Below are positions 44,487 to 50,969 of a stretch of DNA of 64,000 nt, piece after piece (within the stretch, counting starts at the first letter, position 1; each line of letters starts with the position of its first letter). The stretch covers positions 3,410,001 through 3,474,000 of the forward strand of contig CP066225.1 in the NCBI GenBank assembly GCA_016350165.1, given 5' to 3'. Position numbers and translations under genes: made by a program. The notes under the pieces are model-generated. The model searched no databases. It was given only the letters and a program-made list of their open reading frames with translations, and was not told the origin of the DNA. This DNA is from Planctomycetota bacterium (GTDB lineage: Bacteria > Planctomycetota > Phycisphaerae > Phycisphaerales > Phycisphaeraceae).

Positions 44487-45086
44487 ATGTCGGAATGGAT
44501 TGCGTTTGGTATTGAATGGACAGCTGCATTGTTTGGGGTGTTGTGTGTGGTATTAACGATCAGACGGAATGTCTGGTGTTGGCCTGCGGGGTTAGTGCAG
44601 GTGCTTTTATTTATTTATATTTTTTATAATGCGAAGTTGTATTCGGATTTGTTGTTGCATGTAGTTTATGTGGTGTTGCAGTTTTATGGATGGTGGGCAT
44701 GGTTGCATGGCGGAGGAGAAGGGAAGCCTTTAGAAATAAGCAGGTTGTCGATGGTTAGTGCTATTGGGTGGGTGTGCGCGGGGTTGTTTGGTGTGTTTGG
44801 ATTGGGATATGTGATGGATACGTGGACGGATGCATCGTTGGCGTATTGGGATGCTGCGACTACTGTATTAAGTTTGATTGCGACATATTTGCTGGCGAGA
44901 AAAGTACTGGAAAACTGGGTGGTTTGGATCAGTGTTGATGTGTTGTGTATAGGGATATATTCATACAAGGGGTTACATGTCACGACGGGTTTGTATTCGA
45001 TCTTTTTAGTTTTAGCAATAACGGGTTTGATTACATGGGTTCGAACATTGAAAAAAGAAGTGAAGCAAGTCCCAGTCGCGGTATGA
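44487..45086 (+). CDS. pnuC: Nicotinamide riboside transporter PnuC
   Basis: 199 residues with about seven membrane segments. RRNVWCWPAGLVQVLLFIYIFY and YSDLLLHVVYVVLQFYGWWAW are the PnuC signatures. It moves nicotinamide riboside across the inner membrane by facilitated diffusion, trapped by phosphorylation in the cytoplasm. It overlaps nadR, whose kinase domain performs that phosphorylation, so the pair forms a complete NAD salvage route. No riboswitch recognised upstream. Confidence 0.93.
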   Translation: MSEWIAFGIEWTAALFGVLCVVLTIRRNVWCWPAGLVQVLLFIYIFYNAKLYSDLLLHVVYVVLQFYGWWAWLHGGGEGKPLEISRLSMVSAIGWVCAGLFGVFGLGYVMDTWTDASLAYWDAATTVLSLIATYLLARKVLENWVVWISVDVLCIGIYSYKGLHVTTGLYSIFLVLAITGLITWVRTLKKEVKQVPVAV

Positions 45087-46069
45087 TTTTGGGCAAGTTT
45101 ATGCCGCCGCATATGGGGCATAAATACTTGATAGATTTTGGTCGTCATTATGTTGATGAGTTGACGGTGTTGGTTTGTACGCGCGGGTGTGAGGAGATTG
45201 ATGGTGAAAAGCGGTGGCGATGGATGAATGAAATGTTTGGTGGTGCTGGGGTGAAGTTGGTTCATGTGACGGATGATCTGCCGCAGGTGCCTGAAGATGA
45301 TGAGCGGTTTTGGGAAATTTGGCGGGGTGTTGTGCTTGAGCATATGCCAGAGGGGACGGATTATGTTTTTGCGTGTGAAGCGTATGGGTATCAGTTAGCT
45401 GATGTGTTAGACGCGAAGTATGTGCCAGTGGATCGAGCGCGAGAAATGGTGCCTGTATCAGCGACGATGATCAGAGAAGATCCATTAAGGCATTGGGAGT
45501 ACTTGCCAGAATGTGTGCGGCCGGAGTATGTGAAACGTGTTTGTTTGTTTGGTCCTGAATCGACAGGTAAGAGTACGCTGGCGGCAGGTTTGGCGAAGCA
45601 TTTTGAAACGGTGTGTGTTGGTGAGCATGCACGTCCGTTGTTGGATCATAAGGAAGGTGTGTGTGAGGAAGTTGATATTCCCTTGATCGCAAAGGGGCAG
45701 CGAACGTCGGAGGATGCGCTGGCTTTGCAAGCAAATCGTTTGTTGATTTGCGATACGGATGCGTTGTTAACATGTGTTTGGAGTGAGAAGTTGTTTGGGG
45801 GGTATTCGGATTGGCTGTATGGGTTTGCAATGGAACGTGAGTATGACCTTTACTTGCTTTTAGATATTGATGTACCTTGGGTGAATGATGGGCAGCGGTA
45901 TTTGGAAGAAGCGCGTGAAGATTTTATGGTGAGGTGTGTGAGAATGTTAGAGAAGGCGGGGCGGCCTTACCTTAAGGTGAGTGGTGATTGGGGTGAGAGA
46001 TTTGAGGTTGCGGTACGTGCGTGTGATGAACTGATCGAGTGTCATAGAAGCAAGTATTCACAGCTTTAG
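45083..46069 (+). CDS. nadR: NadR-type NMN adenylyltransferase / ribosylnicotinamide kinase
   Basis: About 328 residues from the ATG at 45083, which overlaps the pnuC stop (ATGA) and implies coupling; an ATG at 45035 would add 16 residues and overlap by 52 bases. Nucleotidyltransferase domain first (ILGKFMPPHMGH, with the GxFxPxHxGH signature, and SATMIREDP near residue 130), then the kinase domain with Walker A FGPESTGKST at about 156. It turns nicotinamide riboside to NMN and NMN to NAD. It lacks the N-terminal HTH of enterobacterial NadR, so it is not a repressor. Confidence 0.92.
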   Translation: MILGKFMPPHMGHKYLIDFGRHYVDELTVLVCTRGCEEIDGEKRWRWMNEMFGGAGVKLVHVTDDLPQVPEDDERFWEIWRGVVLEHMPEGTDYVFACEAYGYQLADVLDAKYVPVDRAREMVPVSATMIREDPLRHWEYLPECVRPEYVKRVCLFGPESTGKSTLAAGLAKHFETVCVGEHARPLLDHKEGVCEEVDIPLIAKGQRTSEDALALQANRLLICDTDALLTCVWSEKLFGGYSDWLYGFAMEREYDLYLLLDIDVPWVNDGQRYLEEAREDFMVRCVRMLEKAGRPYLKVSGDWGERFEVAVRACDELIECHRSKYSQL

Positions 46070-46089: not shown

Positions 46090-47073
46090 ATGGCTGATTG
46101 GAAGAAATGGAATAAAAAACGGTTTTTGATTTGGGGTAGTGGGATGGTTGTGGTGCTAGCTATCTTGTGGTTAGGTGTTGCGATGGGTGGGGTTTGGTTA
46201 GTCTCGACGCGTGATGGCATGAAGGTGGTGAGTTGGTTGCGTGGAAAAACGGTGAGTGTGGATGAGAAGGAAGTTTTGCCTGCGATTGATTGGGGGGAGT
46301 ATGAGAATTTGGAATTAGTGACAGCGGATGGTGAGCTGATTGTGACGACGGTGATTGCACATGATGATGAAGAAAGTGCTATAAAAAAAGGGGTAGATGA
46401 TCCTGTGGTGCTGTTGATGCATGGGAAGGGAGGGAGCCGGAAGAGTATGTTGAAGGTGGCGGAGTGGTGGTATGAATTGGGGGCGGATGTTGTTTTGATT
46501 ACGCTACGCGGGCATGGCGATTCTTCGGGTGAATGGTTTGATGGGTATGGGGTAAGGTTAGATGCTGAACGAGCGGTGAGGTTTATTAAGGAGCGATTTG
46601 GGGAACGGCCTTTGATATTGCATGGACAGTCGATGGGTGCGGGGGCAGCGATGTATATGGATGAAAAAGTGGCTGAGGGTGTGGATGGGTATGTGTTTGA
46701 TTGTTTGTATGACGATATGAGGCATGCGATTAGGAATCGGGCGGGGATGTATTTGCCTTGGGGTGTGGAGTGGATGGCTTATGAGACTATATTGGTTGGT
46801 GGGAAATTGTGGGGAGGTGAGGTTGGTGAGATGGTTCCTTTGGATTATGTAGAGGGGTTGCCGAGGGATGCGTATGTTGCGTTTGTGCCGGGGAAATACG
46901 ATGAACATGCGAAGGCAGTGGAATCAGATCGGATGTATGACAAGTTGATGGAGACTGGGATTGCAGGGGAATTAACGGTGCTTAACGGTGGGCATACGAC
47001 GTTAGAACATGAAGACCCGGAGGGTTATAAAAAAGTGATCGAGCGTGTCTATTCGAAGGTTAGAAGTGAATAG
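46090..47073 (+). CDS. Membrane-anchored alpha/beta hydrolase
   Basis: 327 residues. N-terminal membrane segment (about 14-37), then an alpha/beta-hydrolase fold: LLMHGKGGSRKSM (oxyanion region), LRGHGDSSG, nucleophile elbow HGQSMGAG with Ser near residue 178, and a late catalytic His in NGGHTTLEHEDPEG. BEM46/YfhR-like. The substrate is unknown. It starts 20 bases after nadR and so is probably in the pnuC-nadR operon. It also lies 350 bases before the YcaO locus, but nothing specific ties it to that. Confidence 0.8.
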   Translation: MADWKKWNKKRFLIWGSGMVVVLAILWLGVAMGGVWLVSTRDGMKVVSWLRGKTVSVDEKEVLPAIDWGEYENLELVTADGELIVTTVIAHDDEESAIKKGVDDPVVLLMHGKGGSRKSMLKVAEWWYELGADVVLITLRGHGDSSGEWFDGYGVRLDAERAVRFIKERFGERPLILHGQSMGAGAAMYMDEKVAEGVDGYVFDCLYDDMRHAIRNRAGMYLPWGVEWMAYETILVGGKLWGGEVGEMVPLDYVEGLPRDAYVAFVPGKYDEHAKAVESDRMYDKLMETGIAGELTVLNGGHTTLEHEDPEGYKKVIERVYSKVRSE

Positions 47074-47420
47074 AAGGTTGATCGGTTAAAGATTGGGTAG
47101 GCTGTTTCTATATTGGAATGTCGGGTCGAATGTATGAAAGTCACGTGCTGGGTTGATGCGGTTTTAGTTATTTAGAATATTGCAATTTAGCTGGTTTGTA
47201 GTAGCGGTGTGGGGGGAATCAAGTGGAAGTAAATCCTGAAAATGTGGGAAATCCGTTGGGGTTTACGTGAGATTGTGGGATTGATTGGTTTTGTAAATGT
47301 CAGCTAAGATTGGCTGTATTTGCGTAAGAATACCTTTCGTGTGAGTTGAAGCGTCCTTACTAATTTAACAAAAATAGCTGCATGGGCTGCCATGCGCTGA
47401 TACATATTTAGGAGAATCCT
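47074..47420 (+). other. Intergenic region before the small Cys-rich peptide gene
   Basis: No ORF of note in 347 bases. Contains AT-rich stretches that could be promoters of the small peptide gene (for example TTGAAG and TAAGAT-like elements near 47340). No terminator seen for the hydrolase gene. Confidence 0.4.
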
Positions 47421-47567
47421 ATGGGATCATGTTACACAGGCACTTGGAACTGTTGCGGTAGGGCGGGGTCAAATCTGAAGAAGAATCGTCTGACTAAGAA
47501 GGAAGCAGAGATTATTAAGAAGGCTTCTAAGGCTGAGCTAAAGAAGGTTTCTTCTAAGACACGGTAA
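47421..47567 (+). CDS. 48-residue Cys-rich peptide, candidate RiPP precursor
   Basis: Short ORF with a strong AGGAGA SD six bases before its ATG. The N-terminal part, right after Met, is GSCYTGTWNCCGRAGSN with Cys at 4, 11 and 12 plus Ser, Thr, Trp and Gly. Residues 19-48 form a Lys-rich amphipathic helix-like tail (LTKKEAEIIKKASKAELKK). A modifiable N-terminus and a C-terminal recognition tail are the arrangement of bottromycin precursors (core first, follower behind). The next gene is a YcaO enzyme, and a hairpin lies between. No homologue was recognised. It could instead be an unmodified small nucleic-acid-binding protein. Confidence 0.65.
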   Translation: MGSCYTGTWNCCGRAGSNLKKNRLTKKEAEIIKKASKAELKKVSSKTR

Positions 47568-47616
47568 AAAGTGATTGTAATTATTGGGGACGTGGATTGA
47601 GTGAATAGTGAAATCA

Positions 47617-47652
47617 AAAGCGGCACGGACGTGAGTCTTTGCCGCTTATTTT
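47617..47652 (+). terminator. Terminator-like hairpin between the peptide and YcaO genes
   Basis: AAGCGGCA with TGCCGCTT (47618-47625, 47640-47647), then ATTTTA. Its strength is moderate. In RiPP loci such a hairpin often lets the precursor be transcribed more than the enzyme. Confidence 0.6.
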
Positions 47653-47751
47653 ATGGTGATGATATGGAGTGAGTCGAAGTAGATTTTGGCGACTAAAGCG
47701 GCATATGATTGTATGTTGACGTGATTGTTTTTACTGGAAGGATTGCGGTTT

Positions 47752-49014
47752 ATGGTAACGCAGGATTTTGAACGAAGTGTGTCAGCCTTGAAAGCGATTG
47801 AAGTTGCGCGTGAGGAAATTCGTGCACTGGGTTATGCGTACAAAGTGAAGAGATACGGGGATTATATGCCTATATATGAAGTGAATATTGAGCGGGGTGG
47901 TGATCGTGTCGTGAGTGGTGTGGGGAAGGGGGGCGAGCCGTTTTGTGAGGCTGGTGCTTATTTTGAGGCGATCGAGCATTTGTATGGCGAGACGATTATA
48001 CCGATGCCTGAGAAGTTGGTTGTGAAGCATACGCATGAGTTGGCGAAACAGGATGTTGGTGGGAAGAGTTTGCCTTTGGAAATGTTGTTGGAGTTTCCGG
48101 ATCAGCGCGTGTATTGCACAGCGTTGCATGAGTATGGTGGGGAAGGGCGTGTGATGTATGTGCCGACGTTTTTCTGGTCGCCGAGTTTGTTGATGGATCG
48201 GAGGTATGTTTGTGATGATGCGAATGTTGAGTTGTATGAGTACATGTTGAAGTATGCTAGTAATAGTGGTGTTGCATCGGGTATGACGAAAGAAGATGCG
48301 GTGTTGCATGGAATCAATGAGGGGATTGAAAGGGATGGGTATGGAACGCTACTGTATCGATATTTTTATTGTGATGAGGTGAGGCCGTTACCGGTGCTGG
48401 ATAAGGGGTCGTTGTCAAAGGAATTGAAGTATGAAATATTGGATATTGAGCATCACGTTAAGCATGAAGTTGTGTTGATTGATGCAACGACGAATTTGGG
48501 TGTGCCTGTGGTTGGTGCTGTGTTTAAAGGGGCGAGGTATGGTGGAGGGCATTGTACGCCGGGGTTTGGGTGTTCGCTGTATCCGGAGATTGCGATTAAG
48601 CGAGCGGTGTATGAGGCATTGCAGATTGTGTATGGGACGCAGGCGTATGCCGATGAATATCAGATGATGCATGAGCGAGATTTGGAGCGGATTGATTTTG
48701 ATGATCGGTTTGCGAAGTGTATGCGATTTGATTTGTCGGTGTATGAGAAGGGTCTTGGCTATGAGATGGTGGATTATGATGATCTTGGTGATCGGAAGGT
48801 GAAGTTGGATAAGCCTTATTCGACGATGGAGCAGGTGGCGAGGTTAGTGGGGTTGCTTGAGAAGAAGGGGATGCGAGTTTATGTGCATGAACTGAAGGCA
48901 CTGGCGCATGGTGCGCATGTGATGTGTACACAGATACCGGGGTTGAGCCTGTTTTTCCTTGCGGCTGGTGGGATGATGGTACCGCCGGAGGGGCGAACGG
49001 TGGAAGCCTATTGA
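47752..49014 (+). CDS. Stand-alone YcaO-domain enzyme
   Basis: 420 residues from the ATG at 47752 (GGAAGG SD; a TTG at 47725 is also in frame). YcaO motifs: GVGKGGEP at 56-63 followed by EAIEHLYGE (72-80), SNSGVASGMT (171-180), NEGIERD (190-196), GGGHCTPGFGC (265-275) and RAVYEALQ (285-292). These are the ATP/Mg-binding elements of the family, which activates peptide amides to make azolines, thioamides, amidines or to assist other modifications. No fused or adjacent E1/ocin-ThiF partner or dehydrogenase, and no C-terminal PxPxP motif (VPPEGR instead), so it is not a standard azole-forming cyclodehydratase. The small Cys-rich peptide upstream is its likely substrate. Confidence 0.88.
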   Translation: MVTQDFERSVSALKAIEVAREEIRALGYAYKVKRYGDYMPIYEVNIERGGDRVVSGVGKGGEPFCEAGAYFEAIEHLYGETIIPMPEKLVVKHTHELAKQDVGGKSLPLEMLLEFPDQRVYCTALHEYGGEGRVMYVPTFFWSPSLLMDRRYVCDDANVELYEYMLKYASNSGVASGMTKEDAVLHGINEGIERDGYGTLLYRYFYCDEVRPLPVLDKGSLSKELKYEILDIEHHVKHEVVLIDATTNLGVPVVGAVFKGARYGGGHCTPGFGCSLYPEIAIKRAVYEALQIVYGTQAYADEYQMMHERDLERIDFDDRFAKCMRFDLSVYEKGLGYEMVDYDDLGDRKVKLDKPYSTMEQVARLVGLLEKKGMRVYVHELKALAHGAHVMCTQIPGLSLFFLAAGGMMVPPEGRTVEAY

Positions 49015-49063
49015 TGAGTTAGACAGATTGTGAAGATAAAGTGTGTTGTGAGTGTGGGGTAAG

Positions 49064-49090
49064 AAAAACGCTGAGCCTGGTGGCTCAGCG
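49064..49090 (-). terminator. Terminator of the YeeE/YedE genes
   Basis: Perfect 9-bp stem (49069-49077 with 49082-49090), TGGT loop; on the minus strand a T-run follows. It sits between convergent YcaO and YeeE genes. Confidence 0.85.
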
Positions 49091-49147
49091 TGACTCGGGG
49101 TATGCGAGAAGAGGGATGTGTTGAGGACTTGTTGAAATTTGTTTTTG

Positions 49148-49774
49148 TTATGCGGCGACGGTTGTTGGCGAGGCTGATGTTGAAGGTTTGTTGAGTTTTG
49201 GTTCGAGTACTTTCTCGATGAGCGTGAAGACACCCAGAGCGATAATGATGAGGGCGATGATGAAGTACCAGGGTGAGATTTGTGTGAGGTCAACGAATGT
49301 AATTTTGGTTGTTGATTTGCCAGCGACTTCGGCAGTGACGCCGATCCATTTGAGGAGATTGCTGGAGATGGATGGGTAGACTTCAGCAAAGATGCCGCCG
49401 CCGACGATCATGCCGAGGATACCGGGGTAGATGTCACGTGAACCATCACCGATGGCTGCGATACCAGTGCCGGGGCAGAAGCCGAGCATGGCCATGCCGA
49501 TTCCGAAGATGAGTCCGCCGACGATGTTGGCTGCGAGTGCAGCGGATTTAACGTGCATTGGGAAATCGATGCCGATGGCTCTCATGCCCCATATGCCGAC
49601 AGCGCCGGTGATGATGGCGGTGAGCATGACTTTGAGGACGGTGTAGTCGCGAAAGAGGAATTGGTTGAGGATGGTATGGTAGCGTGTGACGTGTGCTTTT
49701 TGGAGTAGGAAGCCAAAGATAAGGCCTGTTGTGAGACCGGCAATGATCATGAATGGTGTGGTTATACTAAGCAT
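49148..49774 (-). CDS. YeeE/YedE family sulfur transporter, half-size, second gene
   Basis: 208 residues, about five membrane segments. Contains the conserved Cys motif in LGFCPGTGIAAIGDGSRD, the pore signature of YeeE/YedE (TsuA) proteins that import thiosulfate or related sulfur species. Half-size members act in pairs; the partner is 66 bases upstream (49841-50386). Likely co-transcribed and controlled by the divergent ArsR gene. Confidence 0.83.
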   Translation of the reverse strand: MLSITTPFMIIAGLTTGLIFGFLLQKAHVTRYHTILNQFLFRDYTVLKVMLTAIITGAVGIWGMRAIGIDFPMHVKSAALAANIVGGLIFGIGMAMLGFCPGTGIAAIGDGSRDIYPGILGMIVGGGIFAEVYPSISSNLLKWIGVTAEVAGKSTTKITFVDLTQISPWYFIIALIIIALGVFTLIEKVLEPKLNKPSTSASPTTVAA

Positions 49775-49840
49775 TTGATTAGACTCCTTGTTAGGAGGTT
49801 GTTGATAAGTTGAAAACCTGTTGATATGTCTAACTGATGA

Positions 49841-50386
49841 TTAGGTAGCCGCAGGTTTTTTGAGGCCGAACATGAGGAAGGCGGTGATGACGCCTGAACC
49901 GAACATTGCGAAGAAGAATGTCCATGAGCCGAGTGCAAGTTGGAGGCCGCCTGATATGCCGTGGCCTGAAGTACATCCACCGGCCATGCGTGCGCCGAAG
50001 AGCATGATGACGCCGCCGAGGAAGGCGACTGCGTAGCGTTTGAGTTTTGAAGGGCCAAATCGCTGTTCCCAAAGGGGCGGAACAGATGCTTTATAGGGTT
50101 GCTTCGCGAGTTTGGCTGCGATGAATGCACCGATGGGCATTGTGAGGACGAGGAAGAATTGCCAATCGAACATCATCTTTTTCGGTGGGTTGAAGTATTT
50201 GCTGTAGTAAGGATTGGCTTCAACGTGTGCAGGTGCGACGACGGCGGTTGCGAGGCCGGCAGTTTTTGCCATGGTTGTGGAGGTACCGATGGCTTTGCCG
50301 AAACCTGCGAAGACGATCCAACTGAGAACACCGATGCCGATGCCGACGACGTAGGGGTTCGATCGCTTGCGTAAGATGCTGCTCAT
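49841..50386 (-). CDS. YeeE/YedE family sulfur transporter, half-size, first gene
   Basis: 181 residues from the ATG at 50386 with a GAGGAG SD; the open frame continues to 50491 but would be poorly initiated. Four or more membrane segments, with the Cys motif RMAGGCTSGHGISG that lines the sulfur path in the family. An extended periplasmic loop (EANPYYSKYFNPPKK) separates the first two segments. Forms a pair with the next gene. Confidence 0.83.
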   Translation of the reverse strand: MSSILRKRSNPYVVGIGIGVLSWIVFAGFGKAIGTSTTMAKTAGLATAVVAPAHVEANPYYSKYFNPPKKMMFDWQFFLVLTMPIGAFIAAKLAKQPYKASVPPLWEQRFGPSKLKRYAVAFLGGVIMLFGARMAGGCTSGHGISGGLQLALGSWTFFFAMFGSGVITAFLMFGLKKPAAT

Positions 50387-50453
50387 GTTTTGCTCCTCGT
50401 GTGTTATTTGCTTGATGTGTTTTTGTGTGTGAATCAAAAATTGTTTCTTGATA

Positions 50454-50481
50454 ATGTGAGTATATGATAAAATAATCACAT
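50454..50481. promoter_or_regulatory. Candidate ArsR operator in the YeeE/ArsR divergent promoter
   Basis: ATGTGA and TCACAT (50454-50459, 50476-50481) flank an AT-rich core containing TATATGATAAAAT. It lies 70 bases upstream of the transporter start. ArsR proteins commonly bind AT-rich imperfect palindromes in such spacers. Confidence 0.35.
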
Positions 50482-50648
50482 AGTAATACAAGCATACTTT
50501 CGGTAATTACGGTAGAATTGCGACAGTAAAAGCGGTTAAAAAGTGATTGATCGGTCGGAGAGGGTGGGTGAATGTCTTCTGGAGCATCGAGAGTTGCGAA
50601 TAGAAGACGCCCGTGTCTTTAGTAAAATTTTTGTGAAATTGGCAAAAA

Positions 50649-50969
50649 ATGAAGAAGCGAGATCAAAAACGATACGAAAAGCAGGCGGAAATGCTTGCTT
50701 CGATTGCGCATCCAATACGTGTGGGGATTGTTGATTATCTAACGAAGGGTGAAGCGTGTGTTGCGGATATTGCGGCACATGTTGATAGTGAGCGATCGAA
50801 TGTTTCGCGTCATTTGAGTTTGATGTTGAAGAGCGGTGCGCTTGTTTGTCGTAAGGATGGCTTGCAGGTTTACTATTCTTTGTCGACGCCTTGCACTGCG
50901 AAGTTTTTAGAATGTGCTAATCGAGTGTTAGAGCATAAGTTTAAAGAAGATGCGAAACTGTATGATTGA
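50649..50969 (+). CDS. ArsR family transcriptional regulator
   Basis: 106 residues with a winged helix: LASIAHPIRVGIVDYL, ACVADIAAHVDSERSNVSRHLSLMLKSGAL (recognition helix about 43-61) and the wing GLQVYYSL. Cys at 37, 67, 82 and 89. Cys37 in the ACVAD position and a Cys in the last helix recall the two-Cys persulfide sensors (BigR/SqrR) as well as metal sensors; with sulfur transporters divergent from it, a sulfur signal is the more likely guess. Probably represses the YeeE genes and itself. Confidence 0.88.
   Translation: MKKRDQKRYEKQAEMLASIAHPIRVGIVDYLTKGEACVADIAAHVDSERSNVSRHLSLMLKSGALVCRKDGLQVYYSLSTPCTAKFLECANRVLEHKFKEDAKLYD

Follow-up and report, generated by a model that had tools for sequence, protein, structure and literature searches.

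The 48-aa gene that lies just ahead of a stand-alone YcaO gene in the window (the whole 64,000-nucleotide stretch of DNA analyzed here) very probably encodes a follower-type RiPP precursor, with the neighboring YcaO as its enzyme. The gene pair, its conservation, the shared motif, and the enzyme fold come directly from computation, and from these we infer recognition, chemistry, processing, and role. The features of the locus are as follows.

47410..47414, + strand: Shine-Dalgarno (SD) sequence AGGAG of the peptide gene, read from the sequence
47421..47567, + strand: proposed precursor peptide gene, 48 aa, from the open reading frame (ORF) list, with an ortholog in the same-genus genome G001
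47421..47456, + strand: proposed core, residues 1-12, MGSCYTGTWNCC; MGSCYxGTxxCC is common to G001, and this is a low-confidence part of the model
47490..47516, + strand: proposed follower recognition motif LTKKEAEII, residues 24-32, at the start of the predicted helix 26-46
47618..47647, + strand: terminator- or attenuator-like hairpin with a U-rich tail to 47653, found by folding and kept in G001
47752..49014, + strand: stand-alone YcaO enzyme, 420 aa, by PF02624 and fold match

A sequence-only reading had described a 48-residue ORF with a strong SD ahead of the YcaO gene and a hairpin between them, and all of these elements are present. The peptide is MGSCYTGTWNCCGRAGSNLKKNRLTKKEAEIIKKASKAELKKVSSKTR, with Cys at positions 4, 11, and 12, and six bases separate its AGGAG from its ATG. 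Both genes lie on the same strand, as that reading had it, but the distance between them recounts to 184 bases rather than 185. Profile searches matched the window peptide to no Pfam or NCBIfam family. Its structure model (mean pLDDT, 67.9) shows a helix at residues 26-46 and an N terminus that is unstructured at low confidence, with pLDDT values of ~80 for residues 21-40 and ~57 for the first 20. A core-plus-follower precursor would be expected to combine an N-terminal part that varies with a C-terminal helix motif that is conserved, as is the case here; the N-terminal core and follower proposed earlier fit this layout, and the follower function is a prediction from sequence.

The region between the genes (47600-47665) folds at -21.6 kcal/mol (z, -4.0), with 1 of 200 shuffles folding equally well, and AUUUUA directly follows the hairpin. 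A simple terminator scan gave no entry for the hairpin, and Rfam returned nothing at gathering scores within 46900-49200. Relative to the window, the G001 hairpin has one pair altered on both sides (G-U to U-G) and two altered on one side. Excerpts from PMC7113386 describe RiPP operons in which the precursor gene is often first and an attenuating terminator behind it is common, and they give a predicted terminator after the bottromycin precursor gene (-21.22); the window hairpin fits this pattern of attenuation.

The start of the enzyme was taken as the ATG at 47752, where the G001 sequence aligns; the ORF list also offers a TTG at 47725. Membership in the YcaO superfamily is indicated by PF02624 (114.7 bits against a cutoff of 25.7; E = 7.1e-33) together with the AlphaFold model (21-row alignment; pLDDT, 89.5), which has a YcaO fold over its full length. 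Because the YcaO match covers the whole protein, there is little room for an added RRE. Residues E72, E75, E190, R194, E288, and Q291, which we take to be catalytic, are invariant across 26 YcaO rows. The nearest solved structure was MJ1094 (6peu and 6pe3; Z = 33.8; rmsd, 3.4 A; 355 residues aligned; 18% identity), and further structural matches were the Methanopyrus YcaO, the YcaO parts of LynD, MusD, E. coli YcaO, microcin synthetase, and TruD. A dsRBD-like match of residues 10-82 (Z, 7 to 8.5) lay near background and was given no meaning. MJ1094 is a methanogen enzyme of the McrA-modifying kind modeled by TIGR03266, against which the window YcaO scored 58 bits with a cutoff of 365. The PxPxP C terminus, a criterion for azol(in)e peptide (TOMM/LAP) systems, is absent from the window YcaO and, by the same pattern, from both TOMM controls too.

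Five neighboring genes were scanned with Pfam and NCBIfam: those for a DUF3800 protein, PnuC, a NadR-like protein, an alpha/beta hydrolase, and, on the other strand, a sulphur-transport-like protein. No E1, TfuA, dehydrogenase, protease, peptide exporter, or methyltransferase was recognized among these five, nor were an M17 aminopeptidase, an amidohydrolase, a P450, or the flavin-dependent dehydrogenase that serves as a streptamidine criterion. TfuA (PF07812) was found in neither the window's own genome (G000) nor G001, with the same probe firing in 1 of 14 control genomes, and the idea of a thioamide was rejected because TfuA is in neither genome. An E1-like partner was likewise rejected, as TIGR03882, a loose probe in that it fires below its cutoff in 6 of the 14 control genomes, was absent from both genomes and from the five neighbors. 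By these two profiles the YcaO has neither a TfuA partner nor, as claimed earlier, an E1-like one (PF07812 and TIGR03882 in 0 of 2 genomes and in none of the five neighbors). The alpha/beta hydrolase (46090-47073) was considered as a pathway enzyme but does not appear in the 1.5 kb upstream of the G001 peptide gene, the next ORF there being S15-like (by eye); since it is not at the G001 locus, we do not count it as part of the system. Upstream of the hydrolase, the consecutive PnuC and NadR-like genes (44487-46069) form a nicotinamide riboside uptake/NAD salvage pair. On the far side, 49148-50491 (- strand) holds the sulphur-transport-like membrane protein (49148-49774) and a second membrane ORF (by eye), beside which lies a divergent ArsR-like small regulator (50649-50969, + strand; by eye).

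When 61 genomes were searched with the peptide, a convincing match appeared only in G000 and G001 (39% identity; E = 4.8e-6), and matches in the others (E, 0.025 to 0.85) were taken as chance. At 1e-5 the YcaO was also confined to these two among the 61. The G001 peptide begins MGSCYSGTGICC and precedes the YcaO ortholog in the same order and with the same hairpin. The expectation that the peptide travels with this YcaO was thus confirmed in G001, the single close relative found, and a peptide spread widely without any YcaO, which would have spoken against the pairing, had no convincing match of that kind in the 61 genomes. The G001 ortholog is 66% and 61% identical to the window YcaO in two pieces, and its frame (L026 9262-10550) is interrupted first by an in-frame TGA and further on by one inserted base that leads into stops, while the peptide gene is intact; the enzyme has therefore probably been lost, which could make the pair dispensable, unless the assembly is at fault.

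Comparison of the two peptide genes shows that the core changes little between these sister genomes and that the helix tail changes fast. Codons 1-12 have a pN of 0.14 (4 changes in 29 sites) and a pS of 0.71 (5 in 7), which are small numbers; the spacer (codons 13-22) has a pN of 0.54 and a pS of 0.50; and codons 23-33 have a pN of 0.52 and a pS of 0.80, with only L24, K27, E28, and I32 kept. Cys4, Cys11, and Cys12 are all kept in G001. Across samples of the window's phylum, a full-length YcaO match was found only in G000 (1/294, or 3/343 counting two partial ones). The partial matches lay at two G085 loci, where the enzymes are 744-746 aa long (TOMM-type by eye), and at a single G095 locus whose frame is unclear, and none of these loci has a small MG or motif ORF with an SD.

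Both genomes of the genus also carry a second YcaO, 43-46% identical to the window YcaO, and PF02624 finds no YcaOs beyond the two per genome. In G000 the second enzyme lies at C1:104 kb, compared with 3457 kb for the window YcaO, and has its own peptides beside it: small SD-bearing ORFs downstream begin MNIKWKGGMIVPRVVNNLTNTENNLI and MSIKWKGGLIVPRTTNNTSKTERELLKK, and the one in G001 begins MNKWKGGFLASDNDDNKLTDSEREMI. Their KWKGG core is wholly unlike MGSCY, but these peptides resemble the window peptide in the C-terminal motif. Ahead of that motif, the first KWKGG peptide is devoid of Cys, Ser, and Thr, which makes an azoline impossible in it unless the core reaches into the motif; moreover, with MN or MS at the start of the KWKGG peptides, a Gly amine cannot serve as the nucleophile in every case. 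In both genomes this system is followed by a convergent gene on the opposite strand for a RimL-like N-acetyltransferase (second YcaO, KWKGG peptides, and RimL-like gene at L028 8144-11117 and L027 8459-10650), and since one KWKGG peptide begins MS, its N-terminal Ser could be acetylated.

Beyond the genus, 61 YcaO loci were assembled from six plasmid records and 55 loci from a pattern scan of a species-genome collection. A tblastn search of plasmids had matched 20 records (24-35% identity), of which 10 were fetched (six relatives and four outgroups), the remainder being copies or partial matches. An MG-starting ORF of 28-60 aa with an SD lay at most 700 bases upstream of the YcaO at 52 of the 61 loci and in 39 of 1050 control windows taken from the same loci. 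With the motif [LV][STN]xxExxx[LI] added, the counts became 34/61 versus 2/1050, under a rule whose MG-plus-motif idea preceded the fetching of the 55 loci and whose exact form was fixed after the loci were viewed. When Gly2 was not demanded, an SD ORF with the motif occurred at 34/61 loci versus 3/1050 windows, and Gly stood at position 2 in 35 of 40 motif-bearing upstream ORFs versus 40 of 451 control SD ORFs. These locus counts are not independent, since there are close kin among the 61; the peptide-bearing genome loci include 7 from Nonomuraea and 11 from Pseudomonas. Upstream candidates without the motif numbered 18 of the 52; one locus, L057, has its peptide downstream of the YcaO and none upstream; and eight loci (L071, L072, L081, L082, L083, L085, L086, and L098) yielded no candidate, four of them having MG ORFs with an SD elsewhere in which the motif is absent by eye. 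With L057 counted, motif-bearing peptides number 35 and span 15 genera; the full 53 peptides span 24. A system peculiar to planctomycetes, the setting named earlier, is contradicted by MG peptides beside YcaO in these 24 genera, and full-length YcaO matches are rare in the samples of the window's phylum. The window pair belongs to a wider set of candidate peptide-YcaO pairs in bacteria. Conservation of Cys4, Cys11, and Cys12, also expected, holds within the genus (G001) but not beyond it, where Cys is present in 7 of the 35 motif-bearing cores and is no family hallmark.

A table of peptides anchored on the motif was compiled from 37 of the 53, with 36 of the 37 anchored; 14 peptides of another type were left out on purpose (L042, L087-L095, L097, and L099-L101), L065 and L077 are also absent through the pattern used, and Gly2 is there by construction. 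Leu (35/36), Thr/Ser (33/36), Glu (35/36), and Leu/Ile (36/36) dominate the motif positions, partly by construction of the anchor, while Glu at +10 and Leu at +11 (22/36 each) were not demanded. In a 16-row alignment that includes peptides of the window genus, every row has Met1 and the motif Glu, and the motif Leu is almost invariant. Upstream of one YcaO in Actinomadura (L059, at -610 and -442 from the YcaO match), two MG peptides stand in tandem, their cores different and their followers nearly identical, and two tandem peptides are also present at the second G000 locus.

Phylogenetic analysis of the enzymes (52 rows, with rows of ≤250 aa omitted and 16 dropped by name as redundant, short, long-branched, or misframed) separated the 48 YcaOs of the set, the window's included, from four TOMM/TfuA-type outgroups (two TfuA-type and two fused TOMM-type) with support of 100/99. 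For five of the 48 rows, the locus has no MG candidate. The three YcaOs of the window genus form one clade (100/100) on a long stem, their closest kin in the tree are not resolved, and the window YcaO is 22-28% identical to relatives outside the genus. No relative of it was found in viral contigs or phages and no match to the peptide in viral contigs or plasmids, so carriage by phage or plasmid was rejected.

A scan of 87 of 105 listed neighboring ORFs, from 27 of the 61 loci, revealed no common partner, the commonest Pfam family occurring in 5. ABC transporters adjoin relatives at three Vibrio loci, one Pseudomonas locus, and one Atopobacter locus, methyltransferases do so in Pantoea, Pseudomonas, and Yersinia, and a SagB-type dehydrogenase does so in Streptomyces, all of which fits a tailored, secreted product. 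In Nonomuraea and relatives (L044, L048, and kin), pairs lie near NACHT NTPase (3 of 87), subtilisin-like (2), and trypsin-like (2) genes, reminiscent of conflict-system neighborhoods. A second kind of MG peptide, mostly MG[RKNS]KR[ST]EI (L042 4885-5004, L087-L095, L099, L100 2827-2952, and L101), lies ahead of YcaOs that are more distant, from Pseudomonas, Vibrio, Bacillota, and Bifidobacteriaceae; an ABC transporter gene adjoins at least five of these loci, and the peptides, in which the L[ST]xxE motif is absent, could form a separate RiPP family.

The motif was also sought with a follower HMM built from 30 segments, none from the window genus, and applied to the window and three loci, which supplied 971 short ORFs. 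The top three of the 971 were the G001 KWKGG peptide (E = 0.0037), one G000 KWKGG peptide (KWKGG-b; E = 1.8), and the window peptide (E = 2.2), with an unrelated ORF next at E = 2.7; single E-values are weak here, and it is the order of the matches that serves as evidence. Of the five window-genus peptides, two (G001_1 and G000_2a) were not among the HMM matches listed. The bottromycin precursor sequence used for comparison was accepted by NF033414 at 116 bits and scored E = 6 with the follower HMM. From residue 24 this precursor reads LSALEMEEL and the window peptide reads LTKKEAEII, so that the predicted follower of the window peptide resembles that of bottromycin. The earlier view that the two peptides are unrelated is right for the core, which differs, and for the absence of any match between the window peptide and NF033414 at E up to 10, but not for the follower, where both carry L[ST]xxExxx[LI] from residue 24.

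In the reading we prefer, Met would be removed, leaving the N terminus (about residues 2-12) as the modifiable core, and the C-terminal helix with LTKKEAEII would be the follower docked by the YcaO. The enzyme would activate a backbone amide of the core with ATP, and a peptide nucleophile would replace the oxygen. This nucleophile is most likely the freed N-terminal Gly amine, which would give a macrocyclic amidine as in bottromycin; we favor it, at a shade under an even chance, because Gly2 and the follower motif occur together at distant loci and because Cys is missing from most cores. Next most likely, though appreciably below even, would be Cys4, Cys11, and Cys12 as nucleophiles to give thiazolines, an option favored by the presence of these cysteines genus-wide. 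The hairpin after the peptide gene would serve as an attenuator that keeps substrate in excess of enzyme, and unlinked enzymes would then remove the follower and export the product.

An unlikely alternative is that the peptide is a cellular microprotein, structural or metal-binding through Cys4, Cys11, and Cys12, that is modified by the YcaO and stays in the cell instead of being released. YcaO enzymes do modify cellular proteins too, according to excerpts from PMC13063428 and PMC5589413, the Lys-rich tail would fit contact with nucleic acid or the ribosome, and there is no exporter among the five neighbors scanned; yet the distribution is narrow and patchy, the G001 YcaO is broken, the tail changes rapidly, and exporters or methyltransferases adjoin several relatives. 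Less probable still is a docking subunit, in which the peptide would be a partner or activator of the YcaO and the true substrate would lie elsewhere. The conserved helix motif would suit such a role, and that the peptide is the substrate is itself our reading, but a docking subunit is disfavored by a variable N terminus with Gly2, by different peptide types on related enzymes, by tandem peptides both in L059 and at the G000 locus of the second YcaO, and by a core kept within the genus, not the helix alone. That this is a chance small ORF beside an unrelated YcaO gene we regard as very improbable: the sequence is short and has no family match, but conservation in G001, the layout counts at 61 loci, the follower-HMM ranking, and the core pN/pS all argue against it.

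If the peptide is the YcaO substrate, as we favor, orphan YcaOs would become predictable enzyme-substrate pairs, and a minimal two-gene pair with a recognizable follower motif would offer a simple test bed for RRE-free substrate reading by YcaO. To our knowledge, characterized follower-guided RiPPs with partner-free YcaOs are rare, and these results suggest a wider family around bottromycin's odd precursor. More tentatively, and somewhat short of an even chance, bottromycin could be one branch of a large N-terminal-core RiPP superfamily in which a minimal YcaO, with neither RRE nor partner, directly reads a single follower code, L[ST]xxExxx[LI]; the window genus would then run two systems of this sort, distinguished by a Cys core and a KWKGG core. 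Were this true, the YcaO serving the KWKGG copy without Cys, Ser, or Thr before the motif would make a non-azoline, e.g., a Lys- or N-terminus-closed amidine.

Several characterized systems can be compared with this pair. The archaeal MJ1094 is, like the window YcaO, a single-domain YcaO fold. YcaO-TfuA thioamide systems also have a YcaO without an E1-like partner, but neither G000 nor G001 has TfuA, and the two TfuA-type YcaOs in the tree lie across the 100/99 branch. Spyrimidone needs an RRE. Streptamidine, as described in excerpts from PMC8442711, likewise combines a YcaO annotated as stand-alone with a small precursor, and its product is an amidine; unlike the proposed core of the window peptide, its core (HLSATH) sits between a leader and a follower. 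It also needs AmiB (E1/RRE-like), AmiC, and AmiE, including a hydrolase and a dehydrogenase (PMC8442711), none of which was recognized among the window's five neighbors. AmiB itself has no recognizable domain in that account, and the five neighbors belong to other families or, for the DUF3800 protein, to one of unknown function. That study began from 2574 actinobacterial stand-alone YcaOs; no description of this peptide family turned up in the open-access papers searched, and actinobacterial members may sit unnamed in the supplements of PMC8442711. Bottromycin is the closest comparison: excerpts from PMC7136475 and PMC10885120 describe an N-terminal core, a follower that binds the machinery, and two partner-free YcaOs. 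Like the proposed core of the window peptide, the core of its precursor (BtmD/BotA; NF033414) comes directly after Met, with Gly2, and its C-terminal follower has a predicted counterpart in the window peptide; its YcaO works without a partner protein (PMC7136475), as the window YcaO would by the genes present. Bottromycin differs in having two YcaOs at the locus versus one, the window's second YcaO sitting far off, and in its core and tailoring enzymes, with no methyltransferase, M17 aminopeptidase, amidohydrolase, or P450 recognized among the window's five neighbors. Without an NF033414 match or a tailoring cluster, the window pair is not a bottromycin; from these parallels, it looks as if it works like one.
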